In this document: positions 9,601-52,349 of the stretch, piece after piece
Layout of the letters: every line of letters begins with the position of its first letter
Numbering within the stretch: position 1 is the first letter of the stretch
NCBI RefSeq assembly: GCF_000186865.1
Contig: NW_008705583.1
Span: forward strand, 502,412 to 566,411
Length of the DNA stretch: 64,000 nt
DNA from: Aureococcus anophagefferens
Lineage: Eukaryota; Sar; Pelagophyceae; Pelagomonadales; Pelagomonadaceae
Direction: 5' to 3'
The notes under the pieces: generated by a model
Databases searched by the model: none
Told to the model about the DNA's origin: nothing
What the model saw: the letters and a program-made list of their open reading frames with translations, nothing else
Position numbers and translations under genes: made by a program

Positions 9601-12600
9601 ATCTACCGCGTCCTGGTCAAGTGCGAGAAGACGTTCGAGGCGCAGAAGCTCGACGGCTGCCTCAACGTCTGCCGCACGATCCTGGGCCAGGTCAACGAGT
9701 TCCGGCCCCACGTGCCCCTCGTCATCGCCCTGCGCCAGCAGGGCATGCGCGACCGCCACTGGGAGAACCTGTCGCAGAAGATCAAGGTCGACGTGAAGCC
9801 CGACGAGTCGTACACGCTCGAGACGATCTTCGAGATGAAGCTCCAGGACCACGTCGACGTCATCACCAAGATCAGCGAGGTCGCGGGCAAGGAGTACGCC
9901 ATCGAGAACTCGCTCGACACCATGGAGAAGGCCTGGAGCGACGTCACGCTCCAGATCGAGCCCTACAAGGAGACGGGCACGTCGATCTTGCGCGGCATCG
10001 ACGAGTACATGGCCCTGCTGGACGAGCACATCACGACGACCCAGGCCATGACCTTCTCCGCCTTCAAGGGCCCCTTCGAGGAGCGCATCGAGAAGTGGAA
10101 CACGACGCTCCAGATCGTCTCGGAGCTCATCGACGAGTGGGTCGCGGTCCAGAAGAACTGGCTCTACCTCCAGCCCATCTTCGACTCGCCGGACATCAAC
10201 AAGCAGCTGCCCGTCGAGGGCAAGCGCTTCGCGACCGTGGACAAGCACTGGCGCCAGACGCTCAACAGCGCGGCGAGTGGCACGACGCTCGCGATCCTCT
10301 TCTGCAACGACCCCAAGCTTCTCGAGCGCTTCCGCGAGTCGAACAAGCTGCTGGACATGGTCCAGAAGGGCCTGAGCGACTACCTCGAGACGAAGCGCGC
10401 GGGCTTCTCCCGGTTTTATTTTCTCAGCGACGGCGACCTCCTCGAGATCCTGTCGGAGACGAAGGACCCGCGCATGGTCCAGCCCCACCTCCGCAAGTGC
10501 TTCGAGGCGCGTGCTTCCCGCGTTTCTTTTGGTTTCGTTCGCGGACCCGACACTCTTCCCCATAGGGCATCAAGTCCCTCGACTTCGAGGCGGACCTGAC
10601 GATCTCGCGCATGAACTCGAGCGAGAAGGAGATCGTCGACTTCGTCGCGCCCGTGAACCCCGTGAACAAGAACATCGAGGACTGGATGGTCGAGATCAAC
10701 GTCGCCATGTGCAAGGCCGTGCGCGACCACATGATCCGCGCCGTGCGCGCCTACCCGGAGACGAAGCGGACGCGGTGGATGATCGAGTGGCCGGGCCAGG
10801 TCGTGCTCAACGGGTCGCAGGTCCACTGGACGCAGGAGGTCGAGGAGATCATGGCGTCCAAGGGCAACGCGGGCATCTTCGAGTACTACGAGCAGTGCAA
10901 GTCCCAGCTCCAGGACATGGTCATCCTCATCCGCACGGACCTGTCCAAGGGCCAGCGGACGACCGTCGGCGCGCTCGCGGTCATCGACGTGCACGCGCGC
11001 GACGTCATGAAGGCCATGGCCGACGCGGGCGTGTCGTCCTGCACGGACTTCGACTGGCAGTCGCAGATGCGCTTCTACTGGGAGGGCGACGACGCGTCGG
11101 GCGACCTCTGGGTCAAGCAGGTCGAGTCGAAGCGCGCCTACGGCTACGAGTACCTGGGCAACTCCTTCCGCCTCGTCATCACGCCGCTCACGGACAAGTG
11201 CTACATCACGATCATGGGCGCGCTGCAGATGATCCTCGGCGGCGCGCCCGCGGGGCCCGCGGGCACGGGCAAGACGGAGACGACGAAGGACCTCGCGAAG
11301 GCCCTCGCGAAGCAGTGCGTCGTCTTTAATTGCGCGCGCGCCGCGTCCGCGGCGCTCGATGCCATTTTTGACGTTAGCTACTCCTAGGTTCCGACGGCCT
11401 GGACTACCGCGCGATGGGCAAGTTCTTCAAGGGCCTCGCGTCCGCGGGCGCGTGGGCGTGCTTCGACGAGTTCAACCGCATCAACATCGAGGTCCTCAGC
11501 GTCATCGCCCAGCAGATCATGACGCTCCAGGGCGCCGTCCAGCGCAACGAGGAGCGCATCATGTTCGAGGACACGGACATCAACGTGAACCCGGAGTTCG
11601 CCGTCTTCATCACGATGAACCCGGGCTACGCGGGCCGCTCCGAGCTCCCGGACAACCTCGAGGCCTTGTTTAGACCCGTGGCCATGATGGTCCCCGACTA
11701 CGCCCTCATCGGCGAGATCATGCTCTTCTCCTACGGCTACATGGAGAACCGCAAGTGCGCGAAGAAGATGGTCGCGACGTTCCGGCTGTGCTCCGAGCAG
11801 CTCAGCAGCCAGGACCACTACGACTACGGCATGCGCGCCGTCAAGACCGTCATCACGGCCGCGGGCAACCTGAAGCGCGCGGCGCCGGAGGAGAACGAGG
11901 AGGCGCTGCTGCTCCGCGCGCTGCAGGACGTGAACGTGCCCAAGTTCCTCGCGCACGACCTGCCGCTCTTCGACGGCATCCTGTCGGACCTCTTCCCGGG
12001 CATCACGCGGCCGCCCTTCGACTACGGGCCCCTCATCACGTGCCTCAAGGCCGCCATCAGCGAGAAGACGCTCCAGGCCGTGCCCATCTTCATCCGCAAG
12101 AACATCGAGCTCTACGAGATGATCTGCGTGCGCCACGGCCTCATGGTCGTCGGCCCGACGGGCGGCGGCAAGTCGTCGAACATCCGCACGCTCCAGCGCG
12201 CGCTGACCATGCTCAACGAGCAGAACTTCGAGGGCAACCGCTACGAGAAGGTCGACATCCACCACCTCAACCCCAAGTCCATCACCATGGGCCAGCTCTA
12301 CGGCATGTTCGACGCGAACACGCACGAGTGGCAGGACGGCATCTTGGCGTCCATCGTGCGCCTCTGCATCAAGAACACGAAGCCGGACCTCCAGTGGGTG
12401 CTCTTCGACGGCCCCGTCGACGCGATCTGGATCGAGAACATGAACACGGTGCTCGACGACAACAAGAAGCTCTGCCTGACGTCCGGCGAGATCATGTCCC
12501 TGTCGGACCAGATGACGATGATGTTCGAGCCCGAGGACCTGGCCGTCGCGTCGCCCGCGACGGTGAGCCGCTGCGGCATGATCTACATGGAGCCCAAGTC

Positions 12601-15600
12601 GCTCGGCGCGGACCCCATCGTCCAGTCGTGGCTCCAGAAGCTCCCGGAGTCCTTCGGGGCGCCGCACAAGACCGTGCTGCAGACGCTTTTTGATACCTAT
12701 TTCGGCCCCGCGGCCGCGCTGATCCGCCGGAACCTGAACGAGCCGTTCCCGACGGTCGACGGCGCGCTCCTGGACGCGCTGCTGAACCTGATGGACTGCG
12801 CCTTCGAGCCCTTCCACCCCAAGGAGGGCGTGGAGCCGAAGACGGCCGAGGACGTCGACCTCGTGGCGACGCAGATCGAGCCCATCTTCATCTTCGCGTT
12901 CATCTGGTCCGCGTGTTGTACGGTGGACACGCGGGGCCGCCAGGTCATGGACGCGTGGCTGCGCAACTTCATGTTCATGAACGACAGCAAGCGCCAGATC
13001 CCCGCGGGCGGCTTCATCTACGACTACCTCTTCGACATGGAGAAGAACGAGTGGGTGCCGTGGATGGACACGGTCGCCGGCTACGAGCACGACGCCGCGG
13101 CGAGCTTCGCGGAGCTCATCATCCCGACGCTCGACAGCGTGCGCTACACCTATCTGCTCGACACGCTGGTGACGAACGGCAAGCACGTGATGATGAGCGG
13201 CCCCACGGGCACGGGCAAGACGGTGAACATCTCGCGCCACTTGCAGGGCGGCTTCCCGGACTCGTACGTGCCCATCTGCATCACCTTCTCGGCGCAGACG
13301 TCGGCGAACCAGATCCAGGACCAGCTCGACGGCAAGTGCGAGAAGCGGCGCAAGGGCATCTTCGGCCCCGCGGCGGGCAAGAAGTACGTCATCTTCGTCG
13401 ACGACGTGAACATGCCCATGAAGGAGGAGTACGGCGCGCAGCCGCCCATCGAGATCCTGCGCCAGTGGTTCGACAACGAGGGCTGGTACGACCGCAAGGC
13501 GCTGACGTTCCGGCGCATCATCGACGTCATCTTCGTCTGCGCGTGCGGCCCGCCCGGCGGCGGGCGCAACTCGCTGTCCGCGCGGTTCCCGCGCCACTTC
13601 AACACCGTGGGCTACACGCCCATGGAGGACAAGTCCATGCAGCTCATCTTCCAGACCATCCTGTCCAACTTTCTGACGACGAACCGCTTCGCGGACGAGA
13701 TCCAGGCGCTCTGCGGCGGCGTCGTCGACGCGACGATCCTGATCTACAACACGATTTTGAGCGATTTAAGGCCGACGCCGGCGAAGAGCCACTACCAGTT
13801 CAATCTGCGGGACATCTCCAAGGTCTTCCAGGGCGTGCTGATGGTCACGGCGCGCAACGTGAAGACCGCGCGCGACTTCGTGCGCTTGTTTACGCACGAG
13901 AACCAGCGCATCTTCGGCGACCGGCTCATCAACGCGGAGGACCACGCGTGGTTCGACGAGCTCATCTTGGCCGCCGCGGGCAAGCACTGCGGCGAGGACC
14001 ACAAGGCGTCCATCGAGTACCCCATCATCTTCGGCGACTTCATGGTCCCGGGCGCGGACCCGCGGCTCTACGAGGAGGTCAAGGACATGGCGCAGCTCCA
14101 GCCGACGATCGAGGAGTACCTGACGGAGTACAACCAGGACTCGAAGCAGCCCATGCACCTCGTCATGTTCATGGACGCCATCTCCCACGTGGCCCGCATC
14201 ACGCGCGTCATGCGCCAGCCCAAGGGCAACGTGCTGCTCCTGGGCGTCGGCGGCTCGGGCCGCCAGTCGCTCACGCGGCTCGCGACGTTCATGTGCGACT
14301 ACAAGATCTCCCAGATCGAGATCACCAAGGGCTTCGGCATGTCGGAGTGGCGCGAGGCGCTGAAGGAGGTGCTGCTGCTCGCGGGCATCAAGGCGCAGCC
14401 CGTCGTCTTCCTCTTCTCGGACACGCAGATCGTCTTCGAGTCCATGCTCGAGGACATCAACAACGTGCTCAACACGGGCGACGTGCCCAACATCTACGCC
14501 GTCGAGGACATGGACAACATCATGACGACGTGCAAGCAGGACTGCGTCCGCAAGCGCATCCAGCCGACGAAGCTCAACATCTTCGCGCAGTTCATCCAGC
14601 GCGTCATGGCCAACATCCACCTCGTGCTCTGCATGTCGCCCCTCGGCGAGGCCTTCCGCACGCGCCTCCGCAAGTTCCCGTCCATCGTCAACTGTGGGCG
14701 AGCCGCGTCCCCTGGGCTCGCCCCCCGCCCCGCCCCGCCCCGTCTCCCCCGCTCGAAACCCCCGCGCGCGCCGCAGGCTGCACGATCGACTGGTTCGCGG
14801 AGTGGCCCGAGGAGGCGCTCCAGTCCGTCGCGACGCGGTCCATGACGGAGACGGACCTGAAATTGGAGGAGCACCTCCAGTCCGTCGTGACCTTCGTCAA
14901 GCACGCGCACATGTCCGTCGCGCGCAAGTCCGAGACGTTCCTCTCGGAGCTCGGCCGCCACAACTACGTGACGCCGACGTCCTACCTCGAGCTGCTCTCG
15001 ACCTACAACCAGGTCCTGGGCTTGAAGCGCGACGAGGTCGGCACGCTCAAGAACCGGCTCCAGGTCGGCCTCGACAAGCTCATCTCGACGGCGACGCAGG
15101 TCGAGGCGCTCCAGGTGCAGCTCACGGACATGGAGCCCAAGCTCATCAAGACCCAGGCCGAGGTCGAGCAGATGATCATCCACATCGACGCCGACAAGAA
15201 GGACGCGGCGGAGACGCAGAAGGTCGTCGCCGCGGAGGAGGCGTCCGCGCGCGAGAAGGAGGCGGAGACGCAGGCCATCGCCGACGACGCGCAGAAGGAC
15301 CTGGACGAGGCCCTGCCCGCCCTCGACGAGGCCGTCAAGTGCCTGAATTCGCTGAAGAAGAGCGACATCGACGAGGTCAAGACCATGGGCAAGCCGCCCT
15401 TTGGCGTGAAGCTGACGATGGAGGCGTGCTGCATCATGTTCGGTGTGAAGCCCGAGATGGAGAAGGACCCCGCGAACCCGGGCAAGAAGATCATGAACTA
15501 CTTCAAGGCGGCCCAGAAGGAGGTGCTGAGTCTAGGCGCCAAGCTCATCGACAAGATGAAGGCCTACGACAAGGACAACATCCCGACGAAGATCATCTCG

Positions 15601-18600
15601 CAGATCGCGCCGTACATCGCGATGGAGGAGTTCCAGCCCTCCGTCATCGAGAAGGCCTCCAAGGCCTGCACGGCCATGTGCATGTGGGTGCGCGCCATGC
15701 ACAAGTACCACGAGGTGTCCGTCATGGTCGAGCCGAAGAAGAAGCTTTTGGCGGAGGCGACGGAGTCGCTGAAGATCACGCAGGCGGCCCTCGCGGTGGC
15801 CCAGGGCACGCTGAGCGAGGTCATGCAGAAGATCGCGCGCCTCGAGTCGGAGTTCAACGACGCCAACGCGAAGAAGGAGCAGCTGAAGAAGGACGTCGAC
15901 GAGTGCCGCGCGCGCCTCGACCGCGCGCAGAAGCTCATCGGCGGTCTCGGCGGCGAGCGGAGCCGCTGGACCGAGTCCTGCGCCAAGCTCGAGCTCGACT
16001 ACACGTCCCTCATCGGCGACTCCCTCATCTCCTCGGCGACGATCGCCTACAGCGGCCCCTTCACGCCCGACTTCCGCAAGGAGCTCACGCGCGACTGGCA
16101 GGACACGCTCCGCGAGCTCCAGCTGCCCCACACGGAGGGCTGCGACATCCGCCAGACCCTCGCCGACGCCGTCGCCATCCGCACCTGGACCATCTGCGGC
16201 CTGCCCCAGGACGCGTCCTCCGTGGAGAACGGCATCATCATGTCGCGCGCGAGGCGTTTTCCCTTGCTCATCGACCCCCAGGGCCAGGCGAACCGCTTCA
16301 TCAAGAACATGGGCAAGGACCCCCACCTCGCGGAGAACGGCATCGAGACGACGAAGCTCACGGAGAAGAACTTCCTGCGGACCCTCGAGAACGCGGTGCG
16401 CTTCGGCCGCTGGGTGCTCCTCGAGAACGTCGGCGAGACGCTCGACGCCGCGCTCGAGCCGCTGCTCCTCCAGCAGAAGTTCCTCCAGGGCGGCACGGAG
16501 ATGATCAAGATCGGCGACTCCACGATCCCCTGGAACGACTCGTTCAAGTTCTTCATGACGACGAAGATGCCGAACCCGCACTACGCGCCCGAGGTCTGCG
16601 TCAAGGTGTCTTTGCTGAACTTCGCGATCACGCCCGTGGGCCTGGAGGACCAGCTCCTGGGCGTCGTCGTCGTCGAGGAGCGGCCGGACATGGAGGAGAA
16701 GAAGAACTCGCTCGTGGTGGCGAACGCGTCGATGAAGAAGGAGCTCAAGGAGATCGAGGACAAGATTTTGTACATGCTCTCGAACTCGACGGGCAACATC
16801 CTCGACGACCACGAGCTCATCGAGACGCTCGCGTCGTCGAAGAAGACGTCCCAGGAGATCACGGCCAAGGTCGCCGAGGCCGAGACGACGGAGCGCGAGA
16901 TCGACACGAGCCGCGAGCGCTACCGCCCCGTGGCCTACCGCGCGACGATCCTGTACTTCTCCGTCGTCGGCCTCGCCGTCGTCGACCCCATGTACCAGTA
17001 CTCGCTCCAGTGGTTCACGGCGCTCTTCGTGGCGGCGATCCGCCTCGCGGACGCGAACGACGACCTCGAGGCGCGCCTGGAGATTTTGAACGACTTCTTC
17101 ACGTACTACGTCTACGTCAACGTCTGCCGGTCGCTCTTCGAGAAGGACAAGCTCCTCCTGTCCTTCCTCATGACGATCAAGATCCTCGAGGGCGCGGGCG
17201 ACATCGACCCCGTCGAGTGGCGCTTCCTCATCTCGGGCAAGGCGCCGAACCCGAAGACCGCGGAGAACCCCGCGCCGGAGGGCGCGCCGAGCGGCTGGCT
17301 CGACGGCCGCATGTGGTCCGAGGTTTTGATGCTCGGGGGCATGGAGAAGTTCGCGGGCTTCGAGAAGGACTTCGGGACCTACATCGACGAGTGGCGCAAG
17401 TACTACGACCACATCGAGCCCCACAAGGTCGCGCTCCCGGCCAAGTGGGAGTTCACCCTGAACTCGTTCCAGAAGCTCATGGTGCTCCGCGCGCTCCGCG
17501 CGGACAAGATCCCCGACGGCGTCATGAACTACGTCATCGAGAAGCTCGGCCAGCGCTTCATCGAGCCGCCGCCCTTCAACCTGCCGGCCTGCTACAAGGA
17601 CTCGTCGAACCTGACGCCCTTGATCTTCGTGCTCACGAAGGGCAGCGACCCGACGAAGGCGTTCAATTTGTTCTGCGCGGAGATGCGCTTCGACAAGAAG
17701 GTGAAGAAGCTGTCCCTGGGCCAGGGCCAGGGCACGAAGGCGACGAAGATGATCGAGGAGGCGACGCAGAAGGGGTCCTGGGTCTACCTCCAGAACTGCC
17801 ACCTCTTCATCTCCTGGCTCACGGAGCTCGAGCGCCTCTGCGACGGGCTGAGCCCCGACGCGACGCACAAGGACTTTCGGCTCTGGCTCACGTCCATGCC
17901 CTGCGGCGACTTCCCCGTGTCCATCCTCCAGAACGGCGTCAAGATGACGAACGAGCCGCCCAAGGGCCTCAAGGCGAACTTGAAATCGGTCTTCTTCAAG
18001 CTCGACGACGCGAAGCTCTCCGTGACGTCCAAGCCCGAGGCCTACCGCAAGCTGCTCTTCGCCCTCGTCTTCTTCCACGCGTCCGCGCAGGAGCGGCGCA
18101 AGTTCGGGCCTTTAGGGTGGAACGTGCCCTACGAGTTCAACGAGACGGATCTGGACATCTCCCGGGGCCAGCTCGAGATGTTCCTCGACTCCTACGAGTA
18201 CATCCCCTACCGCGTCCTCTGCTTCCTGACGTCCTACATCAACTACGGCGGCCGCGTGACGGACTACATCGATTTAAGGACGATCGACGTCATCATGAAG
18301 TCGTTCTACAACGAGCGCATCTTCGAGAAGGACTTCTGCTTCGACCCGGAGAAGATCTATAAATCCATCGACCCGGACCCGGAGAGCCCCCACGCGTCCT
18401 ACATGGAGTACATCGAGTCGCTGCCGCTCACGGCGGGCCCGTCGATCTTCGGCATGCACGAGAACGCGAACATCTCCTGCGCCTTCAACGAGGCCTTCAA
18501 GATGTTCGACACGCTGCTCAGCCTCGCGTCGTCCGGCGGCGGCGGCGGCGGCGGCGGCGGCTCCGAGGAGCTCATTGCGCGCGAGGTCGACGACATCACG

Positions 18601-25534: not shown

Positions 25535-26332
25535 ATGGACGCCGAACTCTCGCAGACGGACTGGTTCGGGCCGCCGCCACCGGCCGTGGACCCCGCGCCG
25601 ACGCCCACGGGCGGCGTCCGCGGCCCAAACATCTACGGTAGAACATTAACACGGCGCAGACGCATCGTGCTCTACGACCGGACCCCGGAACGCGTGCAGT
25701 CGCGCTTCGTCAAATTCACGCATTCCGAGGAAGGAGCCCAAGTCTTTGACGGCTTCAAGACCTTCGCGCTCAACTGGACGCTTTCGTTGCTCGCGGACGT
25801 CGCCGCGGGCGTCGCGGACTGGGACGCGTTTTTGGCCGAGAAGGACCGCGCCTTCGACAAAGCCGTGCGCGCCTGCTTCCCGAATTGGCAGTTCCGGAGC
25901 CGCCTCCTCGTCGAGTGGTGCGCGACGGCGAGCGGCCCCTTCGCGCTCCTCGCGCGGCAGACGCGGTCACGGGCGCGCGCCGTCCTCGCGCGGCGGTCGA
26001 CGCGCCAGCGCGTCCTCGGCGCCGTGCTCCCCGTGTGCCCCGCCGTCGCCGTCGCGGACTTCCTCTGCGGCGACGCGCGGGTCATCGAGGTCCGCGTCTT
26101 CGCCGAGCACGTGTTGCTCGGCTCGTTCCTGCACCGAAAGCTCGCGGAGGCGCTCGGGCTTTTGGGCGCGCGCGTCATGCCGTTCTGCGCGGCGCTGAGT
26201 GCTTTCGCCGAGGGCTACGTCGCCGACCGGCCCCGCGTCGACTTCGACGGCATCCTCGCCAAGGACAAGACGACGCTGAGCAAGCGCGCGTGCCGCCGGA
26301 TCCTCCGCTGCGACGCGCGCCATCGCTACTAG
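25535..26332 (+). CDS. Hypothetical protein
   Basis: 265 residues from the ATG at 25535 (MDAELSQTDWFGPP); an ATG at 25376 would add 53 Arg/Ser-rich residues. Composition is balanced and codon use matches neighbours. It has a Pro-rich N-terminus, a basic strand (LTRRRRIVLYDRTPERV), helix-rich central sequence (GFKTFALNWTLSLLADVAAG), hydrophobic but amphipathic segments near 165-205 (RVLGAVLPVCPAVAVADFL) and a basic C-terminus with KRACRRILRCDARHRY. No catalytic or metal motif is obvious. It is convergent with the 7-TM gene, with stop codons only 3 bp apart. I do not recognise the family. Confidence 0.6.
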   Translation: MDAELSQTDWFGPPPPAVDPAPTPTGGVRGPNIYGRTLTRRRRIVLYDRTPERVQSRFVKFTHSEEGAQVFDGFKTFALNWTLSLLADVAAGVADWDAFLAEKDRAFDKAVRACFPNWQFRSRLLVEWCATASGPFALLARQTRSRARAVLARRSTRQRVLGAVLPVCPAVAVADFLCGDARVIEVRVFAEHVLLGSFLHRKLAEALGLLGARVMPFCAALSAFAEGYVADRPRVDFDGILAKDKTTLSKRACRRILRCDARHRY

Positions 26333-28572: not shown

Positions 28573-31099
28573 ATGTCTCTCTCTCCCCCGAACGAGCCTC
28601 AGCCATGCGCCGGGTGCGCGGCGAAGGACGCGAAGATCGCGCAGCTCACTCGCGCCTGCCACGAGCTGAAGAACCAGTACGAGAATGTTCATCAACTCGC
28701 CTCCGAGCTGAGCAATGAGAAAGACGAGCTCGAAGAGCAGCTCAAGAAAGCGAAATCGGAGGCCGCGGCCAAGATCGCGCAGCTCACCACGGATCTCGCG
28801 GTCGAGAAGGCACTCGCGAAGAAGGAGGAGAAGCGCAAGGCCGACGACAAGGCGAAGCGCGATGCCGCCAAGCAGGCCAAGGAGGCCGAGCGCCGCGACC
28901 CGTCGCCGCCGCCCCTTGCCGCGGCCGCGCCGGGCGCGCTGGGCCAGGGCGGCAAGGACCCCGAGCTCCTCGGCCTCGACGCGCGCGAGGACGCCGCGCT
29001 CGGCGCCGACGCGGCCGAGGCCGCGGCCGAGGCCAAGGCCGCGCGCGCGGATTCGCCGCCGCCCGTCGACGACGGGGCGCCGGCGGCGGAGAACCCCTTC
29101 GCCGTCGGCGACGCCGTCGAGGCGCGCCGGGCCGGCGGCCAAAAGTACTACGCCGGCCGCGTGCGCCGCTGCCCGAGCGCGGCGGCCTGCACGGTCCGCT
29201 ACGACGACGGCGCCGTCGAGCACGAGGTCCCCGTGGACCGGATGCGCGCGCTCGGCGACGCGGCGACGCCGCGCGGCAAGCGGCTCTTCGCCGAGCCGGA
29301 GGCGGAGCCGGGCGTCGACACGCCGCCGCCGTCGCCGGACGCCGGCGGCAAGACCGGCGCGGGCGGCGGCGCGTTGGACATGCTGCAGCAGGGCTACGCG
29401 TCGTCGCCGGAGGGCTTCGGCACGCCGCGCGGCGTCGAGGACGAGGACGAGGACATCGGCGTCGAGGAGACCAAGAACGACACGTTCCACGACGCGGCGG
29501 CGGCGCCGTCGCCCCCGTCGTCCTTCGTCTCGCCCAACGACAAGGACCAGGACGCGTCGCCGTCGAAGATCGCGCCGACGTCGGAGGTCGCCGCAAAGGT
29601 GCCCGACGAGGAGAACGGGTCCTGGCTCTGGATCCTCGCGCGCGTCGTGAACTACGACGCGGAGTCCGGCGTCTACACGGTGCGGGACGAGGAGAACTCG
29701 AAGATCATCGAGCTCCCGGAGTCCCGCGTCCGCCCCCTGGACCTGCCCGAGAGCGACCTCCGCGACCTCGCCCGGGGCGCGCGCGTCATCGCGATCTTCA
29801 CCAACACGACGTCGTTCTACCCCGCCGTCGTGTCCAAGGCGCCGAAGCGCGAGCCCGGCGGCCAGCCGCCCGGCGTGATCCGCCTCAACTTCGAGGACGA
29901 CCCGGACGCCACGGGCCGCCCGCGGGACCGCCGCGTGTTCCTGCGCTACGTGCTCCGCGACCTCGAGCCCGCGCCGCTCGAGAGCGGCGACGACGGCTCC
30001 GGCTCCGAGCGCGGCGCCGACGCCGGCGGCCGCGTCGTCGACGACGACGAGGACTGGGACGACGACGCCGCCGAGAGCGACGAGGAGGCGGACATGAAGG
30101 CGGAGCTCGCCGCGCTCCGCGCGAAGGTCGCGCGCGGCGCGGCCGCCGCCGCGGGCCGCGGCACCATCGTCGTCGCCGACGCCGGCGGCGGCAACGCGGA
30201 CCGCGGCGCCGCGGCGCCCCGCCGGCCCAAACAGCCGGGAGGCCAGCGCCGCGCGGTGGGCGCGCCGCTGAGCGACGGCGCTCTCAAATTGCTCCCCGTC
30301 CTGCGGGCGTCTCTCGTGCTCGTGCGCGACCGCGCCGCGCGCGGCGACTACGTCACGTCGGCGCCGAGCCGCCCGACGCTGGACCTCGACTTCGACGCGT
30401 GTCTCCAGGGCCTCCACTCGTCGGGCAACTACCTGGAGACCGTGCTCACCGGCGGCGCGAGCGCCGCGTCCGTGTTTTTCCGTCTTCGCGGGCGCGCGCG
30501 AGTCGACGCGTCGCGTCGCAGGTTTCTCGGCCGCGGCGTTCGTCGACTACGGCTTTTGGGTCGAGGCCCTGCTGCGCGCCGCCATCCAGAAGGGCAGCGC
30601 CAAGAAGGAGGGCGACCTCATCGACATCATCGCCGACTACGCGCCCTACGGCGCCAAGTACCGCGGCGTCGCGACGGGCAAGAACCGGGCCGAAAACAAC
30701 CGCGCGCACGTCCGCAAGTCGATCTGCGGCCTCCTGTTCATCAGCATCCTCAAGTGCCCGGCGCTCCAGGGCAAGATCACGGAGGAGAGCCTCGTCGTCG
30801 AGGGCGCGTGGAAAACCTTTTACTTCTCCGCGCTCGAGCCGGCCTGCGGCGACGACTCCGTCCCCGGCAAGCTCACGTTGCGCCTCCGCCACTACATCGC
30901 CTTTGACGAGCTCGGCCTCTCCAAGCTCGTCGAGCGCGACCCCTACCGCAGCCAGGACAAGATCGGCGCGCAGAAGAAGCGCAGGGGCCAATCATTCATC
31001 TACAGGCCGCGCGCCGCCGAGCCGCACGTCTTCTCGCTCGAGAAGAACCCCGTGCTCCTCTACACGCTGCTCAAGGAGATCTACCTCGCCGCCGGCTAG
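28573..31099 (+). CDS. SGF29: SGF29-like tandem-Tudor protein with extra Tudor-like and C-terminal domains
   Basis: Exons 28573-30454 and 30522-31099 give 2460 nt, 819 residues. Residues ~1-120 form a coiled coil after a Cys-x-x-Cys (CAGCAAKDAKIAQLTRACH). A Tudor/chromo-like module sits at ~175-225 (FAVGDAVEARRAGGQKYYAG). Residues ~350-470 match the SGF29 tandem Tudor: WILARVVNYDAESGVYTVRD, the acidic linker, VRPLDLPES and VIAIFTNTTSFYPAVVSKAP, with the TTxFYxA aromatic site that reads H3K4me3 in SAGA complexes. The C-terminal ~220 residues (FVDYGFWVEALLRAAIQKG, KSICGLLFISILKCPALQG) form an unrecognised helical domain not found in yeast SGF29. Real SGF29 proteins are about 260-290 residues, so this one is greatly enlarged. 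Confidence 0.8.
30455..30521 (+). other. SGF29-like intron, GC-AG, 67 nt
   Basis: Starts GCGCGAGCGCCGCGTCC and ends CGCGTCGCAG; phase 1. It joins LETVLTG to GFSAAAFVDYGFW. No GT donor in the segment has the needed phase. A GC two codons downstream (A|GCGCCG) is the only close alternative. Confidence 0.78.
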
Positions 31100-36895: not shown

Positions 36896-37804
36896 TTAGT
36901 GCATCGTCGCCGCCTTGGCGACGAGGAACGCGCAGAAGGCCGACGTGATGCAGACGAGGGGGATCGCCTGGAGGCAGTCGGAGACGCGCTTGAAGAAGTT
37001 GAGGAACACCTGCGGGCGGTGGTGAAACGGACCCGGGCTACGGACGCCGGGCGAACGGACGCAAAACGCGACGATGACGCCCACGGCGGCCATGGAGCCG
37101 ATGAGCAGCGCGAAGAACCCGACGTCCGAGCCGACGAGGAGCGGCACGAAGAGCGTGAGGTCGTCGAGGGACCCGCAGCACGCGATGACCGCGAGCGTCT
37201 TCGTCGTGCCCGTGCGGTCCGCCTCGGCCTCGTCGGCCTTGAGCTCCGCCGTCGACGACGTCTCGTCGTCGTCGTCGCGCATCGTCGGCGCGACCTCGGG
37301 CAGCTCGACGCCGTCGTGCATCGTCGACGTGACCTCGGGCAGCTCGACGTCCGCGGCCGCGGGCCTCATCTCCGCCGCGGCGCCCTTCGGCCGAAGCCGC
37401 GACCGGCAGGCGCCCGCCAGGTCCTCGTAGGCCGCGCGCAGGCCGCCGCAGCAGCCGAGCTCCTCGCCGTAGCGCTCCGCGAGCTCCTCGCGGCCGAGCT
37501 TGAGCGAGAACAGGAAGAGCGCGCTCGCCGCGATGAGCGTGAGGATGCGCTCGCTCGAGAACCCGTCGGCGCCGCCGTGCGTCAGCTTGTCGATGGCCAT
37601 CTCGCCCGACGTCGCGATGACGAACGCGACGACGGTCTGCGTGCCGCAGACGACGCTGTAGACGACCATGTTCTTCGTGCGCTCGGCCCGGCTGATGTTC
37701 GGGGCCAGGAACACGGAAAACCACACGACGTCATCGATGCTCGACGCGATCTTCAGCGCGAAGGCCTCGCCGACGGACAGGAACCAGTTGAGGATGACCT
37801 GCAT
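36896..37804 (-). CDS. CadD/LysE-like membrane transporter with two Asp-Asp repeats
   Basis: 302 residues as read through, starting at ATG 37804. Two halves each begin with a DD-containing helix: ALKIASSIDDVVWFSVFL (~16) and VIACCGSLDDLTLFVPLL (~205). Hydrophobic segments follow (VVYSVVCGTQTVVAFVIA, ILTLIAASALFLFSLKL, FALLIGSMAAVGVIVAFCV). The pattern resembles cadmium/LysE-superfamily exporters, where paired acidic residues in the membrane bind cations. The cytosolic loop between halves is acidic and holds a duplicated VELPEV-TMxD. Codons 37010-37060 (17 residues) look like a retained 51-nt intron; without them the last helix pair is smoother. Metal specificity cannot be read from sequence. 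Confidence 0.65.
   Translation of the reverse strand: MQVILNWFLSVGEAFALKIASSIDDVVWFSVFLAPNISRAERTKNMVVYSVVCGTQTVVAFVIATSGEMAIDKLTHGGADGFSSERILTLIAASALFLFSLKLGREELAERYGEELGCCGGLRAAYEDLAGACRSRLRPKGAAAEMRPAAADVELPEVTSTMHDGVELPEVAPTMRDDDDETSSTAELKADEAEADRTGTTKTLAVIACCGSLDDLTLFVPLLVGSDVGFFALLIGSMAAVGVIVAFCVRSPGVRSPGPFHHRPQVFLNFFKRVSDCLQAIPLVCITSAFCAFLVAKAATMH
37010..37060 (-). other. Possible in-frame 51-nt GT-AG intron
   Basis: On the minus strand it begins GTCCGTTCGCCCGGCGTCC and ends ACCGCCCGCAG. Removing it gives VIVAFC joined to VFLNFFKRVSD in phase 0. Length divisible by three means the frame is open either way, so this is only a suggestion. Confidence 0.45.
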
Positions 37805-43824: not shown

Positions 43825-43940
43825 ATGTGGGCCATACCAAAAATGCCGAGATGACACACGATGCGCGGTTACATTCTGACAAATGCCTTGAGGAATTGAG
43901 GGCCAGTTTCAAAGTGGTCATTGATTCTATCGAAGACTAG
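43805..43940 (+). pseudogene. Out-of-frame relic of a third helical repeat module
   Basis: In a different frame from the gene just upstream, this stretch reads HSDKCLEELRASFKVVIDSIED before TAG at 43938-43940. It parallels the HCSDNLTANLKLAIDSIADT module ends of repeat protein B. An indel in the third unit has therefore truncated the protein, or a short intron is missed. Confidence 0.6.
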
Positions 43941-44259: not shown

Positions 44260-47200
44260 CTAGAGGGCGGCCTTCGACGGCGCGTCCGCGTCGACCTCGG
44301 GCCCGTCGACCGCCGGCGGCGGCGCGGCCTTGGACCCGTCCGCGACGGCGCCCGTCGGCGGCGCGGGCGGGTCCGGCGGCGCGAGCTCGTAGGACCGCGT
44401 GCCGCGGATGCGCACGGGCTGCTTCGCGTCCTGGCCTTCGGGTCCGGCCGCGCGTCGGCCGTGAGCCAGACCGCGCCGAACTCGAGGTGGTCCCACTCCA
44501 AAATCTTCTCGCGCGCGCGGATGCGGTTCCAGCAGTCGCGGCGGCCCTCGCGGCCCTGGAGCACGTTGATCTCGCGCACGCCGCTCTTGTCCGCGTCCGT
44601 CGGGTTGATGCAGGACACGGCGTCGCAGACGCCGCAGCCGCCGCGGAGCGCGAGCCGCGGGTGCGGCTCCTCGTCGGGCGCGCGGACCTCGCCCTCGCCG
44701 CGCATGGTCCGCGCGACGATGGTCAGGAACCACCAGTCGGCGCCCCAGCCCTTGAGGTCCGGGTCGAAGTGGTCCAGGAAGTGGCCCAGCGCCTCCGAGG
44801 AGAAGAGCGGGCACGTCATCTCGATGAAGTTCGTCAGGCGGACGCGGTTCGCCGGCTGCACGGCCGTCATCGCGTGCGACACCTTGCCCCGCTGCTCGAA
44901 GGCCGGCTGTAAAGCGTGGAGCTTCGTCCGCTCGCGCACCTCGAAGAGGCGGTTGATGCGCGGCGCGTCGATGACGACGTCGTCGTCCAGCACCAAGACG
45001 CCGTCGTAGGACCGCAGCACCTCCGCGACGCCCGGCTCGCGGTAGAGCGCCTGCAGGTTCTCGAACTTGCCGCCGCGCCGGCGGCGGTAGACGTCCGCGC
45101 GGTCGCGCCACTTGTCCTCCTCGGACGTGCCGTAGTACGTCACCCAGAGGTCGTAGCCGCGGTTCCCGTTCTTCAGCCAGTTGGGCAGCACGGCGCGGTC
45201 GCCGCAGCACGAGTAGACGAGGTACTTCTTGTTCCGCACGGGCAGGCCGTCGACGTCGCCCGCGGGCGGCGCCTCGGCGCCCGACGACGCGGAGCTCGTG
45301 TCGCCCTTGGGCGTCCACGCGTAGACGGGCAGCTCCTCGAGGGCGCACTGCGTCGAGCCGTCGTTCGCGGCGCCGGACTGCTGGTCCGCGAGGGCGCGGA
45401 TGCGCACCTCGGACACCTCGCGCCACGCGCGGCCGTCGTAGACGCGCCACGGCGCGTCGGGCGCGATGAGCTCGGGCCGCTCCGCGCCGTCGTAGGCGAT
45501 CAGCGCCGCGGACCCGGAACCCGGGCGGCTGCCGATCATCCAGGCCGAGAAGGGCGCGTAGAAGTAGAGGTAGTGCGCGCCCTCCTCGTGGCGGTAGACG
45601 CGGAGCGACAGGCCCTTCTTCGCCCCCCCCGGCGCGGACTTGCCGCCCGAGCCGTCCTTCTTCGCGACCTTGTCGTGGGGCACGTAGACGCCCGCGCAGG
45701 CGTCGGCGGCGGCGCCGCAGGACGCCGGCAGGTCCACGATGACCGCGCCCGAGTCGCGGACCTCGAGCAGGTAGTTCTCGCGCTGCTGGCGCTTCGCGGC
45801 CGCGACGACCGCCCCCTCGGCCTGCTCCGCGGTCAGAAAATTGCCCAACGGCGACCCGCCGCCGGCCTTGGCGACCCAGCACTCGGCCTGGCCCGCCTCC
45901 AGCGCCGCGGCGTGGGACGCCGTCGCGTAGTCCGGCGCGCCGGGCCGGACGTCGAACTGGTCCGGCCGATACCGCGGCGGCGCGAGCATGAGCGCCCGCA
46001 GCGTGTCCACGTGCGTCTCGAGCACGGACGCGGCACACACTACGGCGAAGCGGTGGCCCGTCGCCGACACGACGTGCTGCTCCAGGCGCACGTGCGCGCT
46101 CGGCACCGTCGCCCAGCGCCGGCCGTCGAACGCGGACCACGGCGCGCGGACGTCCTGGGGCCGGAGCGCGAGGTCGTGGGCGACGAGCGCCGCCGTCGAC
46201 GAGTAGGGCGTCCGCCCGACCATCCAGGCCACGAAGGGCTTGGAGATGCGGTAGAGGTGGTGCGCGCCGCCCTGCTGCTGGTAGAGCGCGGAGCCGTCGT
46301 CGCCGCCGCGCCGCTGGAGCCGCACGTACGCGCCGCCGCAGTCCGCGCGGACGCAGCCCGGCGGCAGCGACACGAAGACGACGGGCGGGTGCTGGCCCAG
46401 GTCCGCCGCGTCGTAGCTCTCGGGCAGGCGGCTCGGGTCGCCCTTGAGCGGCGACGCCGCGTCGCTCAGCGCGCCCGGCGGCAGGAGCACGTGCTCGCCG
46501 TAGAGCGCGGCCGCGCGCTTCTCCGACGTCGCCTCCTCGTGGAGCACGCGGACGGACGCCGCCTCGAAGGCGCTCGGCTCCGCGCCGTTGAGCCTGTCCT
46601 CCAGCTGGAGATCCGCGGTCGACGTCGGCGACGCCTTGCCGCCGGACGACGACGACGTCGGCGTCTTGGGCTCCGCGGCCCGGGCGCCGTGGGCGCGCTT
46701 CCAGGCGTCGAAGTGGCAGTAGGGGAAGCTCAGGACGAAGGCGCGCGACGACACGAGGTCGCCGCCGCAGGCCGCGGGCTCGCCGCGCGCGGCGCGCCAC
46801 GCGTGGTTGCCCGCGGGCGCGAGCCCGGGCTCGCTGAGCCGCCCCGCGGACCGGCCCCGGCCGTGGCCCAGGAACACGGGCGCCGACGCCGCGCCGTGCT
46901 TCGCCGGCAGGCGCCGGAGCTGCGCGGCCGCGGGCACCAGGTCGTAGTACGCGCGGTCGTCCGCGGGGCTCACGGGCGCGCCGTCGACGTGGTCCGTGCG
47001 CCGCTTGAAGAGCGTCTCCCGGACGAAGAAGTTGTAGGCGCTGTCGTGGGCCGTCGCCGACCCCAGGGACGCGCGCTTCTGCACCTCCATGTTGTCGAAG
47101 CGCACGTTGAACGTCTGCTCGGGCCCCGCGTTCGTGTTCGCCGCGCCGCCGCGGCCGCGGCGCGCCTCGTCGAAGACGGAGCGCAGGGACCGGCCCGGGA

Positions 47201-48333
47201 GCACGTAGAGCAGCTCGTCCTCGGCGATGCGCAGGAGCCAGGACGCGCCCGCGAGCCGCGCGCGCGCGGCCGCGTCGACCGCGACCGCGTCGTCCGCGGT
47301 CCGCGTGTCGTCGCCCGGCGGCCGCGGCAGCACGACGACGGCCTTGCCGAGCCACCGGAACGTCGCCCGGAGCTCGCCGACGACGGCGTCGCCGTCCGGC
47401 GCGTCGACGTAGAGCACGACCCACCGGAAGCCGACGCGCAGGTGGAACCGGAGCCACCACTCGAGGCGCGCGCGCTGGTCCGGCCGCGCCGCCTCCCGGA
47501 GCACGCAGGCCACGGCCGCGCGGCAGTCGTCGCCGCCGGCCCAGGCCAGGTCGAGGCGCCCGTAGAAGCACGCGCCGAGCTCGGACGCCTGGCGGTGGCA
47601 CGACTCCACGTGGCCCTGGTGGATCGTCGACTCCTTGATCTCGTGGTCGAAGAGGGGCCGCGTGTGCGTGTAGGCGCCGGGGCCGTTGTACATGAGCACG
47701 TCGCTCACGAGCTGCACGTTCGCGGGGAGCCGGTACCGCGGCGACGAGTTCGGGCCCCGCGTGAACTCGTCGACGGCGCGCTGGCAGCCCCTGCGGTTGA
47801 TGAGGTAGGCGCCCGTGGACCAGTGGTTCTTGCGCCAGGGCACGAAGGACGACCCCAGGCCCAGCAGCGTCCGCAGCACGCGGACGTTGTTGATCGTCAG
47901 CTGCAGCACCTGCCAGTCCGGTGGCGCCTGGCTCACGATCTCCTTCACCGTCGTGCGCCAGGCGCCGTAGAAGGTCAGGTGGATGTCGTCCTCCATGACC
48001 ATGACGTAGTCGTCGTCGAGCTCCAGCGCCATCTCCGCCGCGCGCAGGTGGCTCAGCGAGCAGCCGATCTCGCCGCTCGACTGCTTCATCTCCGACGGCA
48101 GCTCGACCGTGGACGCGAGCAGCTTCGGGTCCCCGAAGAGCTTCTTCCCGTCGAAGGCCGGCACGCGCTTGAAATTGCTAATGCCCGCCTCCTCGAACTG
48201 CTTCTCCATGCGCACCTGCGAGGCGGCGGGGGGGGGGTCGGCGCGCGCGCGAGGCTCGCGCGTCGACGCGGCGGCGCGCCTTGCGGTCGACGCTCCGGTC
48301 GAGGTTGATGTAGAGGATCGCGACGTCGTCCAT
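44260..48333 (-). CDS. Giant multi-domain glycosyltransferase: GT25-like + GT92/GT2-like + DUF707-like
   Basis: Exons 48333-48280, 48215-44454 and 44430-44260 give 1328 residues. Domain 1 (1-~215): GT25 (AILYINLDRSVDRK, then EIGCSLSHLRAAEMAL and MVMEDDIHL, the DxD-type EDD). Domain 2 (~230-460): GT92/DUF23-like (WWLRFHLRVGFRWVVLYVD, SWLLRIAEDELLYVLPG, VRFDNMEVQKR). Two related ~110-residue beta-rich modules follow (~640 and ~860; GGAHHLYRISKPFVAWMVG and EGAHYLYFYAPFSAWMIG). Domain 3 (~1015-1240): DUF707-like glycosyltransferase (YDGVLVLDDDVVIDAP, KLHALQPAFEQ, WGADWWFLTIV). No signal peptide is visible. The last 57 codons depend on a 23-nt gap being removed. Such a protein could build a branched glycan in one chain (inference). 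Confidence 0.78.
44431..44453 (-). other. 23-nt gap: micro-intron or indel in the glycosyltransferase gene
   Basis: On the minus strand it begins GCGCGGCCGG and ends GGCCAG. Its removal joins WLTAD to DAKQPVRIRGTRSYEL in phase 0. The direct repeat GACGCG flanks it. Without removal the frame runs into a low-complexity tail ending at 43869. It may equally be a sequencing frameshift. Confidence 0.4.
48216..48279 (-). other. Glycosyltransferase intron 1, GC-AG, 64 nt
   Basis: Minus strand, starts GCGCGCCGCCGCGTCGACG and ends GCCTCGCAG; phase 0. It joins LDRSVDRK to VRMEKQFEEAGI, the expected GT25 sequence. A run of ten C lies inside. No GT in the right phase exists. Confidence 0.9.
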
Positions 48334-48668
48334 GGTCGCCGACGGCTCCGGGGCCCGACTGGCGACGCCCAACGCGCGCGCGCGCGCGGCCCGGCGAAGC
48401 GACCGAGACGCCGGGGCGCCCCGACGCCGCTCGACGACGGCGACGGCGCGAGCACCGCTCGCCGCCGGCCGCAGGCGGGACCGGGGCGCGGGGACCCTCC
48501 CCCGGCTACGCGACCGTCGCGTAGGCTGCCCACTGGAGGTCGTTGCTTACAAAACGCCGACACACAGCACACGGCTGGATTTGTTGGCACTGTAGTAGTT
48601 ATTGAGCTCCTTTATTGGAGCTCGTTGTACTGCATGTTGAAGTTCCGTACCAGCGATGGCCATGTTAG
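48334..48668. other. Gap upstream of the glycosyltransferase gene with a hairpin
   Basis: 335 bp, GC rich at first and AT-richer from 48535. A perfect inverted repeat GAGCTCC-tttatt-GGAGCTC lies at 48604-48623. No gene is supported; the spacer should carry the promoter of the minus-strand gene and the 3' end of the next one. Confidence 0.5.
48604..48623. repeat. 7-bp perfect inverted repeat with 6-nt loop
   Basis: GAGCTCC and GGAGCTC around an AT loop, 45 bp downstream of the stop of the flavoprotein gene. Possibly a 3' hairpin. Confidence 0.5.
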
Positions 48669-50435
48669 TCACGCCCCCTTCTTCCGCCCCCTCGAAGCCG
48701 CGGGCGCCGCTTCCCCCTGGACCTTCCGCCGCACGCTGCCCTTGGCCGCGTCGCCCGGCCGGCCGCGGACGACGACGGTGCCCTTCTTGGGCACGAAGTC
48801 GACGACGAGCTCCTCGAGGCGCCGCGCGCGGACGAGCTCCGCCGCGGCGGCGTCCGCCGCGGAGAGAGATCCGAGGCACCGCGCGCGGAGCGAGTCGCGG
48901 AAGACGGACGCGGCGCGGCACGACGACATGCGCGTGCCGGCAAGATTCAGCGCGTCGGGCCCGAGCGCGAGCGCCGCGGCGGCGCCGACGACGTAGACGG
49001 GCGTGTCCGCGTCCCAGCGCAGCGACGCGTGGAGCACGGGGTAGCCGCCGACGACGGCCACGGGCCGGTCCGCGAGGAGCCGCGCGAACAGCGGCGACGC
49101 GGCGACGCCCGGCGCGCCGCCCGTCGCGTACCAGACCTTGTCGAAGGGCCCGAGGCGGTCGCCCTCGGCCGTGTCGAGGTAGCGCGCGCCGCCGTCGACC
49201 TCGCCGTAGACGACGTCGACGTCGGCGACGACGGCCGTGCCGCCCCGGTCGAGGCCGCGCCGCGCCTCGGGCGACACGGACCCGCCGCGCCGCGCGGCCC
49301 GGAGCATGGCGAGGCGGTCCTCGGGCGCGGCCCGCTTCGACAGGAACCGCGCGATCTTCCCCGGCCGCGTGCGCCAGCCGAGCCACGCCAAATCCAGGTC
49401 GTACTGCGACACGCGCAGCGTCCGCCGCCGCGCGAGGAGCGTCGGTTTCGCGCCGCGGCGCTCGGCGACGAAGCAGAGGTGGGCCGACGTGAGGCCGCCG
49501 CCGACGACGGCGACGCGGTCCCCGGCCTCGACGACGGGTTCGCCCCGGGCCGCCGCGGCGACGACGTCCCACGCGTGCGCGCCGAGGCCCGGCGCGGCCC
49601 AGTCCGGCAGGCGCGCCGCCGCCGCCGGGCCGACGGCCAGCACGACCCGCCGCGCCACGAGCGTCTCGCCCGTCGCCAGGCGGACGCGCGCCAGATGCCC
49701 GTCGAGCCGGTCGACGCGGTCGACGACGCCCTCGGTCACGCAGCCGCGCACGCGCGGGTACTGGTCGATGAGGTGGTCCACGAAGTCGCGGAAGAGTTTT
49801 GTAGAAGGCAGGCGGAAGTTGCCCTTGAAGCCGCACCCCTTGCCCTTGGGCGCGTCGCAGTCGCAGCCGTCGTCGCCGCCGCTCTCCTGCGTCGTCCGCA
49901 CGGACGCGTCCAAATCGACGACGTCGCGCTCCCGGCCGTTCTTCACGACGAACTGCTGGAGCGCGAAGGAGTCGTAGGGGCAGGGGTGCTGGTCGTAGGT
50001 GGACCGTAGGTGCGGGATCTCGAGGGCCGCGAACTGCGCGTCCCAGGTCCCGAGCCACGCGCCGGAGCCGTCGACGACGCGGACGCGGTCCAGGATGCGC
50101 CTCGCGACGTCGTCGCCGCAGCGTCGCTTCTCGAGGTCGCTCCAGGACTTGCGCGAGCTCCGCGGCGCGCTGCCCAGGCCGACGAAGAAGTCGCCGGACT
50201 CGTCGGGCGCGTCGTCGAGGAGCCGCAGCAGCAGCGCCAGGGCGTGGGGCCCGGCGCCGACGATGACGAGCTCGAGCGGCTCGTCGGCGCCGTCGCTGCC
50301 GTCGTCGCTGGCTTCGTCGTGCGTTGTTGTTGCGGTCTCGGCGTCGTCGGTGGCTTCGTCCTGCGTCGTCGCGGCGGTCTCGGCGTCGCTGGCCTCGGTC
50401 AAACCGGAAGCACTAGCTGCAAGCAACTCGGCCAT
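48669..50435 (-). CDS. FAD/NAD(P)-binding monooxygenase-like protein (lysine/ornithine N-hydroxylase type)
   Basis: 588 residues from the ATG complementary to 50433-50435. An acidic Thr/Asp/Glu-repetitive leader (~5-45) precedes an FAD Rossmann motif LVIVGAGPHALALLLRLL. Downstream come a substrate-side segment (HLRSTYDQHPCPYDSFALQQ), the second dinucleotide fold DRVAVVGGGLTSAHLCFVAE (~285), and a C-terminal ATG-like VWYATGGAPG. The order and the GxGPHxL start fit the SidA/IucD/PvdA-like and related FAD-dependent oxidoreductases that use NADPH and O2. A C-rich insertion (CDCDAPKGKGCGF) is odd. The C-terminus is Lys/Arg rich (SRGRKKGA). The substrate cannot be read; no siderophore genes are nearby. 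Confidence 0.75.
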   Translation of the reverse strand: MAELLAASASGLTEASDAETAATTQDEATDDAETATTTHDEASDDGSDGADEPLELVIVGAGPHALALLLRLLDDAPDESGDFFVGLGSAPRSSRKSWSDLEKRRCGDDVARRILDRVRVVDGSGAWLGTWDAQFAALEIPHLRSTYDQHPCPYDSFALQQFVVKNGRERDVVDLDASVRTTQESGGDDGCDCDAPKGKGCGFKGNFRLPSTKLFRDFVDHLIDQYPRVRGCVTEGVVDRVDRLDGHLARVRLATGETLVARRVVLAVGPAAAARLPDWAAPGLGAHAWDVVAAAARGEPVVEAGDRVAVVGGGLTSAHLCFVAERRGAKPTLLARRRTLRVSQYDLDLAWLGWRTRPGKIARFLSKRAAPEDRLAMLRAARRGGSVSPEARRGLDRGGTAVVADVDVVYGEVDGGARYLDTAEGDRLGPFDKVWYATGGAPGVAASPLFARLLADRPVAVVGGYPVLHASLRWDADTPVYVVGAAAALALGPDALNLAGTRMSSCRAASVFRDSLRARCLGSLSAADAAAAELVRARRLEELVVDFVPKKGTVVVRGRPGDAAKGSVRRKVQGEAAPAASRGRKKGA

Positions 50436-50693
50436 GTTAGATGCCACATGTTATAGCCACGAAGGTCGACGATTGAGTTCAATGTTGAACTTCAACTTCA
50501 ACAAAAATAAATATTAATGTTGCCCTTCAAACCAGGACCTCAACGGCGGTGTCCGTTCCTGTCAGAGGCGCCGCCCATGCGTATAAACCAAGACCCCGGA
50601 TAAAAGAGAAATCCCGGAGGATCGCCTGTGTTTAAGAGGGCGGAGAGCGCGCGCCTCCCGCGCGGGCAGCGGCGGCGGCAGCGGCCGCGCCTT

Positions 50694-52349
50694 CTAGATG
50701 TCGATGTCGATGGTCCGCTGGTTGCAGACAAAGGACTTCTGGTACATCCAGATCTTGTTTGTATTCCTACATGAGACGAGTGAGATTCGTTTCGAGCGAA
50801 TTGAGCGCGCGCGCGCGAACCCTGCCCGGTCTCGGGGCCAACCGCGCGCGCCGAAGAAGCCCCCGCCCCGTCCACCCGCCACACCCCGCAAAAAGCGACG
50901 CCGGCAGCGCGCCAGCTCTTCTGGCCCGTCTCGGTGATGGCCGTGAGGCGGAGGAAGTAGCCCGTCTCCGCGACGCCCTCCTCGAACTCGATCTTCTCCT
51001 CGTCGACGATGTCCTTGGGCCCGCGCTTGACGAGGACCTTGCCCTTGGGCGCGGGCGCGTCGTCGGGCGTGATGGCCGCCTTGTCCGTCATCTCGACACC
51101 GGCCTCGACCTCGTCCTCGTCGTCGGACTCGACGTCCGTCTCGTCGTCGACGTCGATGTTGCCCATGTCGAGGCGCTTGTAGGACGGCGTGAGGACGCGG
51201 CCCGTGTTGCGCGCCTCCTTGAGGCCCGGGAAGTCGAGGTCCACGGGGAAGTTGACGTCCTCGGAGAACGTGGGCCCGCCCGCGCCCGCGTCGGCCTCGA
51301 CGAGCTCGATGACCTCGGGCCCCTGCTCGCCGTCCTCGTCGGGCTCGAGGCGCACGACCTTGTTCTTGAGCCAGCCGCTCTCGGAGAGCTTGGCCTTGGG
51401 CGGGAAGAGCACGTTCGTCCAGATCGCCGTGTCCATGGACTCCTGCTGGGACCACTCGACCTTGATGAGCTCGATCTTGACGAACTTGACGGGCGTCGCG
51501 AGCTTGCGGAAGCTCACGAGGCCGCTGAGCCGGCCCTCGACGTTGAAGCAGTTCGTCTTGTAGTCGAGGACGCACTCGCCGTTGAGGTCCGTGAGCGGGA
51601 GCACGTGCGGCGGCATGCCCAGCGCGTGGACGTTGGGCTTGCCGCGGCTCTCCTTGGGCGCCGCGCATATCTGCTGGAGGTGCACGGGGAGGCGCACCTC
51701 GCAGTCGTAGCCGAACCAGGGCCGCTTCGCCGTCGCCGCGACGTGCTGGCGGATGTAGTAGAGCGACCCCGTGTACGTCGGGCGCAGGCACCCGTGCGGG
51801 TAGACGTCCTTGAGGTCCAGCTCGAAGGGCAGCTCCACCGTGCCGGCGACGAGCAGCCCGTTCTCCGTGCCGGGGATGACGCACTCGCGGTACGCGAGCT
51901 GGTACCCGTCGACGGACCGCTGGAACTGCGCGAATTGCTCAACGTTGACGAGCACCTCCGTGATCCAGACCTGGGCGTCGGGCGGCGACGTGATGGACAC
52001 GACGCCCGTGATCTTGTCGTCGATCTTGTAGGTCGCGCACTCGCCGTACTCGCTGTAGGGCATGAGGTACGGGTCCTCGGGGTGGCGGATGACGTTGTCC
52101 GTGTCGAGGTGCATCTCCATCTCGACGACGTCGTGGAACCAGCCCGGCCCGCCGAAGTTGAACGTGCGCTGGAGCCTGCGCGGCGGACGGGTCGGACGGC
52201 GGGTGCGCGTGTCGCGCGGCCCCGCGCGGCGGCGGCCCCACAGCGCCCCCCACCTCTCCCATGGGCTGCCCCGCGTCCTACGCGCGCGGAACCGACGGGG
52301 ACGGCGCGACGCACCAGTTGCGTTCCTTGGGCTGGTTGATCTGCTCCAT
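50694..52349 (-). CDS. VPS26-like arrestin-fold retromer protein
   Basis: Exons 52349-52315, 52175-50913 and 50766-50694 total 1371 nt, 456 residues. N-terminal arrestin half: DKITGVVSITSPPDAQVWIT, VAGTVELPFELDLKDVYP and TYTGSLYYIRQHVAAT, the last matching VPS26's YTGxxxxLRYFL. C-terminal half: NCFNVEGRLSGLVSFRKLAT and VKFVKIELIKVEWSQQ, equivalent to VPS26's GKIYF-x-IKHMEI segment. It ends with FLRLTAITETG then KSWNTNKIWMYQKSF, like the conserved last strands. An acidic ~90-residue insert (VDDETDVESDDEDEVEAGVE) is not found in animal VPS26 (~330 residues). The expected role is endosomal cargo retrieval. The start exon (MEQINQPKERNW) was found by splicing. VPS26C/DSCR3 is an alternative. Confidence 0.82.
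50767..50912 (-). other. VPS26-like intron 2, GC-AG, 146 nt
   Basis: Minus strand, starts GCGCGCTGCCGGCGTCGC and ends CATGTAG; phase 2. It joins TETGQKSW to NTNKIWMYQKSF. The intron read-through is Gly/Arg junk. Confidence 0.87.
52176..52314 (-). other. VPS26-like intron 1, GT-AG, 139 nt
   Basis: Minus strand, starts GTGCGTCGCGCCGTCC and ends CCGCGCAG; phase 2. It joins a 12-codon first exon (MEQINQPKERNW) to LQRTFNFGGPGWFHD. In-frame stop codons lie inside. Confidence 0.8.

Follow-up and report, generated by a model that had tools for sequence, protein, structure and literature searches.

In a 64,000-nucleotide stretch of the Aureococcus anophagefferens genome (the window; C23:502412-566411 of a 49.05-Mb, 86-contig genome; 69.5% GC), five introns in four genes begin with GC and end with AG. 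Two lie in a dynein heavy chain gene, and one each in an SGF29-like gene, a family 25 glycosyltransferase gene, and a gene called VPS26-like (Table 1). Judged on predicted proteins, exact removal of the GC-AG intron restores the conserved protein in four of the five cases by comparison with homologues and in the fifth by frame and a coding model. We consider it probable that these are ordinary U2-type introns, for which target-site duplications of introners, a class of intron-generating transposons, supply GC or GT donors in a GC-rich genome; this explanation would fit the data better than a changed U1 small nuclear RNA (snRNA).

A preliminary description of this DNA had placed GC donors at five sites, all reading GCGCG, with T, C, A, C, and C in turn as the sixth base. 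All five were located, the donor letters read as claimed, and each intron ends in AG. For four of them, the frame-keeping GT-AG, GC-AG, and AT-AC junctions near the noted sites were enumerated, and the products were scored against homologues (two reference sequences per intron, one for the intron with its donor at 50912). The GC-AG junction was the top-scoring candidate in all four (candidate numbers in Table 1). It was least decisive for the glycosyltransferase, where a GT-AG alternative of equal product length scored 220 versus 239 for GC-AG. Both dynein GC-AG junctions are gapless in four displayed alignments (89 PDB sequences matched, 60 listed), and deposited relatives run uninterrupted across the other two junctions: P0007 at the glycosyltransferase intron and P0004 (76% identity) at the 50912 intron. 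The homologue search for the SGF29-like gene returned none covering the junction, and the scored residues 1 to 200 stop short of it; here, the GC-AG assignment is supported by frame and the coding model. Two GT-AG introns, described as equally firm, were upheld. The third dynein intron is gapless at its junction in one displayed alignment of 46 matches, and the first intron of the gene called VPS26-like agrees with frame and with the public model P0002, from which the public model P0003 differs at this junction. None of these seven firm introns has a U12-type donor (ATATCC or GTATCC type).

That errors of reading, assembly, or frame mimic GC introns is hardly credible, since homologues are gapless across four junctions and other deposited Aureococcus proteins read through or mis-splice the same intron. 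When spliced, the gene called VPS26-like gives a product that matches two NCBI A. anophagefferens proteins, JL720_1161 and JL722_3298 (P0002 and P0003), at a listed identity of 87 to 88%. By eye, the correctly read stretches of both agree with the window, and the frame-shifted stretch of JL720_1161 corresponds to another reading frame of the window; we take the DNA to come from this species or from a very closely related strain. Both proteins carry spurious residues inserted at the 50912 junction. P0002 is additionally frame-shifted in one stretch, and P0003 is missing conserved stretches. Gene finders that insist on GT miss GC introns, and these two mis-spliced public proteins are an example.

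How could GC donors arise in such numbers? Introners have been described as carrying target-site duplications, inverted repeats, and their own 3' splice site, with the 5' splice site coming from the duplication, and in some families GC accounts for up to 50% of donors (Gozashti et al. 2022, PMC9860276). In the mechanism we propose, the spliceosome of A. anophagefferens would accept either pyrimidine at donor position +2, and many introns would arise from introner transposons whose insertion duplicates 8 bp of the target site. Bases 1 to 8 of the intron would then be the first copy of this duplication, with bases 1 and 2 serving as the donor. Targets starting with GC or GT would both be usable, and in a 70% GC genome the donor would often be GC. 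Once inside the intron, the duplication copy would be free of coding constraint and could drift toward G-Y-G-(C/G)-G. The short introns have a further sequence at +11 to +14, in most cases GCGTC; it resembles the 5' end of a young introner family, in which C(A/G)GCGTC immediately follows the duplication.

Young introners were sought in a sample of 305.7 kb (61 sequences, 64 kb of which is the window). An initial scan for duplications and inverted repeats was too loose and was discarded: it gave 2,087,076 raw hits both ways, with a symmetric and hence uninformative reversed-sequence control. The first scan retained used no gene model and selected elements ending in AG that have inverted repeats (12 of 16) and an 8-bp duplication with no mismatch. 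It returned 20 rows representing 16 distinct elements of 195 to 211 bases, and none in two resampled controls. For 12 of the 16, a single strand is readable, and their duplications all start with GC or GT; the other four can be read on either strand, one of them starting with GC on both and three with GC or GT on one. The elements fall mostly into two families, CAGGGCAG... and CTGTGTGG..., and are located in L009, L012, L013, L015, L021, L022, L028, L034, L036, L040, L048, L062, L067, and near 470.4 kb of C23 in G000 (L083). The second scan, which had no GC/GT condition and replaced an earlier version requiring a GC/GT start, revealed a second kind of family, in which the duplication is followed by C(A/G)GCGTC and the element ends in GTAG. 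Its five copies, of 65 to 89 bases, all start with GC or GT. They are five of the six GTAG-ending rows among 44 that passed (40 printed, GTAG-ending first); the other 38 were not family-like. The sixth GTAG-ending row (L009, 217 bases), which starts with CG, showed no further family resemblance and was dropped. Pooled, the 21 young introner donors comprise 10 GC and 11 GT.

These counts bear on whether GC is preferred genome-wide, as had been suggested from the five GC donors among seven firm introns. That GC donors are common stands, and it is not new: 39.6% of the introns of A. anophagefferens supported by expressed sequence tags were reported as GC-AG in 2011, when their origin was called an enigma and the species ranked top among 61 both in GC-AG share and in unexplained information deficit (Iwata and Gotoh 2011, PMC3033335). 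The window ratio is above the published figure and comes from a small sample. The preference itself is not supported. In the sample, GC makes up 13.9% of dinucleotides and GT 4.9% (together a background of 18.7%), so GC is 2.8 times commoner, yet young introners use the two about equally. Per available site, GT is thus used about three times as often, and GC is tolerated rather than preferred.

A self-trained coding model, run on the same sample with GC and GT given an equal start, produced 204 introns, 127 with GC and 55 with GT. These counts were not used as a genome estimate, since the model invents intergenic introns and misplaced three of the seven firm ones: the glycosyltransferase donor was off by 18 bases, the acceptor of the 50912 intron was missed while its donor was found, and the donor of the 52176-52314 intron was placed elsewhere. 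With position +2 left open, 77 short AG-ending introns divided into 31 GC, 25 GT, 11 GG, 8 GA, and 2 others; when the model was started without donor information, no clear donor emerged. Six donor settings were compared by likelihood; GC plus GT was best (-338960), GC only gave -339033, A or G gave -339088, and GT only was worst (-339201), the differences being small.

Beyond the first two bases, the firm introns share more. The consensus GYG(C/G)G is present in all seven, versus 1 of the 21 young duplications (Fisher, 6.8e-6), and among GC starters, GCGCG is found in 5 of 5 firm introns versus 1 of 10 young duplications (Fisher, 0.002). In the window, GC is followed by GCG at 8.3% of GC sites, which puts the chance of 5 in 5 at about 4e-6. 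A donor consensus selected after insertion would account for this contrast. Elsewhere, in yeasts, METTL16 and SNRNP27K have been tied to donor position +4 (PMC10581693).

The five GC-AG introns may be decayed introners, an origin for which the evidence is indirect. Several points weigh against the explanation proposed here. The ends of the seven firm introns show no clear target-site duplication (1 to 5 of 8 bases match), and none of the 21 recognised introners falls inside the window. That all duplications start with GC or GT could reflect the target preference of a transposase and not selection by splicing; for 3 of the 16 elements, moreover, the strand starting with GC or GT was the one picked, with agreement on strand from the coding model, which is itself GC/GT-biased. 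The donor contrast between firm introns and young duplications is only suggestive because the two sets were chosen differently. On the other side, two window introns, both of those that could be compared, are absent from relatives P0004 and P0007 at 75 to 76% identity, on the assumption that the deposited proteins are unspliced open frames. As to terminal similarity to a multi-copy element, GCGTC near +12 resembles the 5' end of the C(A/G)GCGTC...GTAG family; no wider resemblance was seen, and no systematic search for one was made.

The preliminary description had offered an altered U1 interaction. On such a reading, a changed or second U1 snRNA would pair with GCGCG donors and cause GC to be preferred across the genome. 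GCGCG should pair poorly with canonical U1, and no U1 gene was located in the genome by the Rfam model, by an exact 11-mer of the canonical 5' end, or by five looser patterns, while U2 and U6 controls were found with the same tool; Rfam scores cover 41 of the 370 first-look candidates and scans only some of the pattern hits, and the assembly may have a gap. The U2 (149.8 bits) and U6 (94.6 bits) genes have canonical GUAGUA and ACAGAGA cores. The 11-mer has two exact copies, L001 and L002 (C22:598056 and C41:122977), versus three for the backward control; neither is U1 by cmscan at E<=10, and both lie in AT-rich DNA and may be chance. The looser patterns assume conserved loops, and one of them gave no hits. 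For the pattern with 43 hits, 30 were retrieved, and Rfam was run on 9 of them and on 6 of the remaining 13, which were retrieved in short form; for that with 78 hits, 30 were retrieved and printed, and the scans covered 5 of them plus 2 of the remaining 48, again retrieved in short form. The pattern with 14 hits had 7 fetched and scanned, and in the pattern with 5 hits, L002 was scanned and four were judged from their letters. A canonical U1 5' end, AUACUUACCUG, is reported for A. anophagefferens (Iwata and Gotoh 2011, PMC3033335). In addition, GT introns coexist with GC introns, GC is used no more often than its frequency would predict, and a donor G at +3 and +5 weakly fits canonical U1. 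We regard an altered U1 as quite improbable and favour introner-supplied donors read by a U1 that would be unchanged.

The control searches also revealed features of the U2 genes. Two of them (L069:636-827 and 6487-6678; G000:C47) are on the same strand close to a contig end, 5.85 kb from each other, and their upstream DNA is similar, as would be seen in a tandem repeat; a third U2 is on C3. The U2 at L006:1501-1692 (minus strand) has the Sm-like site AUUUUUAC, versus AUUUUUGG in the Rfam consensus.

Downstream of the donor, [GC]CGT[CT] starts at +11 to +14 in all seven firm introns, five of which have exactly GCGTC (Table 1). Chance figures of 1e-9 and 3e-7 are guides only, as the motif was noticed after the fact. 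Outside the window, GCGTC occurs at +11 to +14 in 12 of 56 short model introns versus 2.6% by chance, and GC and GT donors account for six each; the donor matrix of the coding model extends to +12 and may favour motif-bearing introns. In the raw sample, window included, GCGCGH followed by GCGTCC at the +12 spacing occurs 20 times, versus 3 to 14 times at 36 other spacings listed. Genome-wide, there are 1758 such pairs versus 1464 at one same-phase control spacing, and since the backward control rises too (780 versus 691), the corrected excess is about one standard deviation. In the open-licence literature surveyed, we found no description of a downstream donor motif in Aureococcus.

What the motif does, if anything, admits three readings. 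It could be the displaced half of a two-part donor that pairs a loose G-Y-G-(C/G)-G at the splice site with GCGTC 11 to 14 bases into the intron. Brought by an introner family and then kept, the motif would add recognition beyond positions -3 to +6 and let GC work as well as GT. We hold this only tentatively and think it doubtful. If it were true, a transposon end would now be part of the host splicing code, and if the motif is functional, the information-deficit puzzle of 2011 becomes directly testable. The motif has a slightly better than even chance of being a relic of one introner family, or an effect of chance or composition, that plays no part in splicing. Neither of the young families CAGGGCAG... 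and CTGTGTGG... has it, and the genome-wide excess at +12 is as modest as given above. What speaks against a mere relic is that the motif is kept in introns whose interiors can no longer be aligned, with GC and GT donors alike, as the counts outside the window indicate. Alternatively, the GT within the motif (GC|GTC) might be the true donor, making these GT-AG introns whose mRNA keeps about 12 extra bases. Every motif holds a GT, which in the young family lies exactly 12 bases past the start of the duplication and so keeps the frame, and the legend to Fig. 2F of Gozashti et al. (2022, PMC9860276) describes an introner of Aureococcus sp. that adds 12 bases, of which the introner contributes 4 and the duplication 8. 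With the same acceptor, this donor breaks the frame in three of the five GC-AG introns (offset 13; 11332, 30455, and 50912), and in the remaining two it adds residues for which homologues have no counterpart; it also leaves the GC or GT start of the duplications unexplained. We therefore consider it very improbable that the motif GT is the donor here.

Table 1. Firm introns of the window, their downstream motifs, and two introns from the coding model
Feature	Coordinates	Strand	Description	Evidence or location
Dynein heavy chain intron 1	10507..10565	+	GC-AG, donor GCGCGT, 59 bases	Gapless dynein alignments; top of 16 candidates
Dynein intron 2	11332..11387	+	GC-AG, donor GCGCGC, 56 bases	Gapless dynein alignments; top of 39
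Dynein intron 3	14694..14776	+	GT-AG, donor GTGGGC, 83 bases	Gapless dynein alignment
SGF29-like gene intron	30455..30521	+	GC-AG, donor GCGCGA, 67 bases	Frame and coding model only
Family 25 glycosyltransferase intron	48216..48279	-	GC-AG, donor GCGCGC, 64 bases	P0007 reads through; top of 58; Pfam
C-terminal intron, gene called VPS26-like	50767..50912	-	GC-AG, donor GCGCGC, 146 bases	P0004 reads through; top of 38
First intron, gene called VPS26-like	52176..52314	-	GT-AG, donor GTGCGT, 139 bases	Frame and public model P0002
Motif at +14	10520..10524	+	GCGTT	Dynein intron 1
Motif at +12	11343..11347	+	GCGTC	Dynein intron 2
Motif at +12	14705..14709	+	GCGTC	Dynein intron 3
Motif at +12	30466..30470	+	GCGTC	SGF29-like intron
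Motif at +11	48265..48269	-	GCGTC	Glycosyltransferase intron
Motif at +12	50897..50901	-	GCGTC	50767..50912 intron
Motif at +11	52300..52304	-	CCGTC	52176..52314 intron
Model-only intron	25603..25659	+	GC-AG, GCGTC at +12	Coding model alone
Model-only intron	37010..37060	-	GT-AG, GCGTC at +14	Coding model alone

Two of the gene names given to this DNA agree with Pfam, which supports an SGF29 tudor domain in the SGF29-like gene and glycosyltransferase family 25 in the other. The name VPS26-like (50694-52339, minus strand) found no such backing: searches with its relative P0004 gave 0 Pfam families (E<=0.01) and 0 PDB matches (E<=10).

The introns described here invite comparison with three systems. 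Iwata and Gotoh (2011, PMC3033335) cover the abundant GC-AG introns of A. anophagefferens, the same species as the window by protein match, and of Micromonas pusilla. Their donor profile spans -3 to +6, so that a motif at +11 to +14 would stay invisible, and the sections of that paper relied on here report the abundance of GC-AG introns with no link drawn to introners. The introners of Gozashti et al. (2022, PMC9860276), as described in the parts cited here, have a duplication and inverted repeats, whereas the window introns have neither; their Aureococcus introner adds 12 bp to the mRNA, whereas the exact window junctions add none. The downstream motif may nevertheless correspond to that introner, a link that we infer. 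In the copepod Eurytemora affinis (PMC5714493), non-GT donors are likewise frequent, the U1 5' end is conserved, and gene models are spoiled; unlike the GC donors here, those of E. affinis are GA or GG, in an animal, and account for about 12% of introns.

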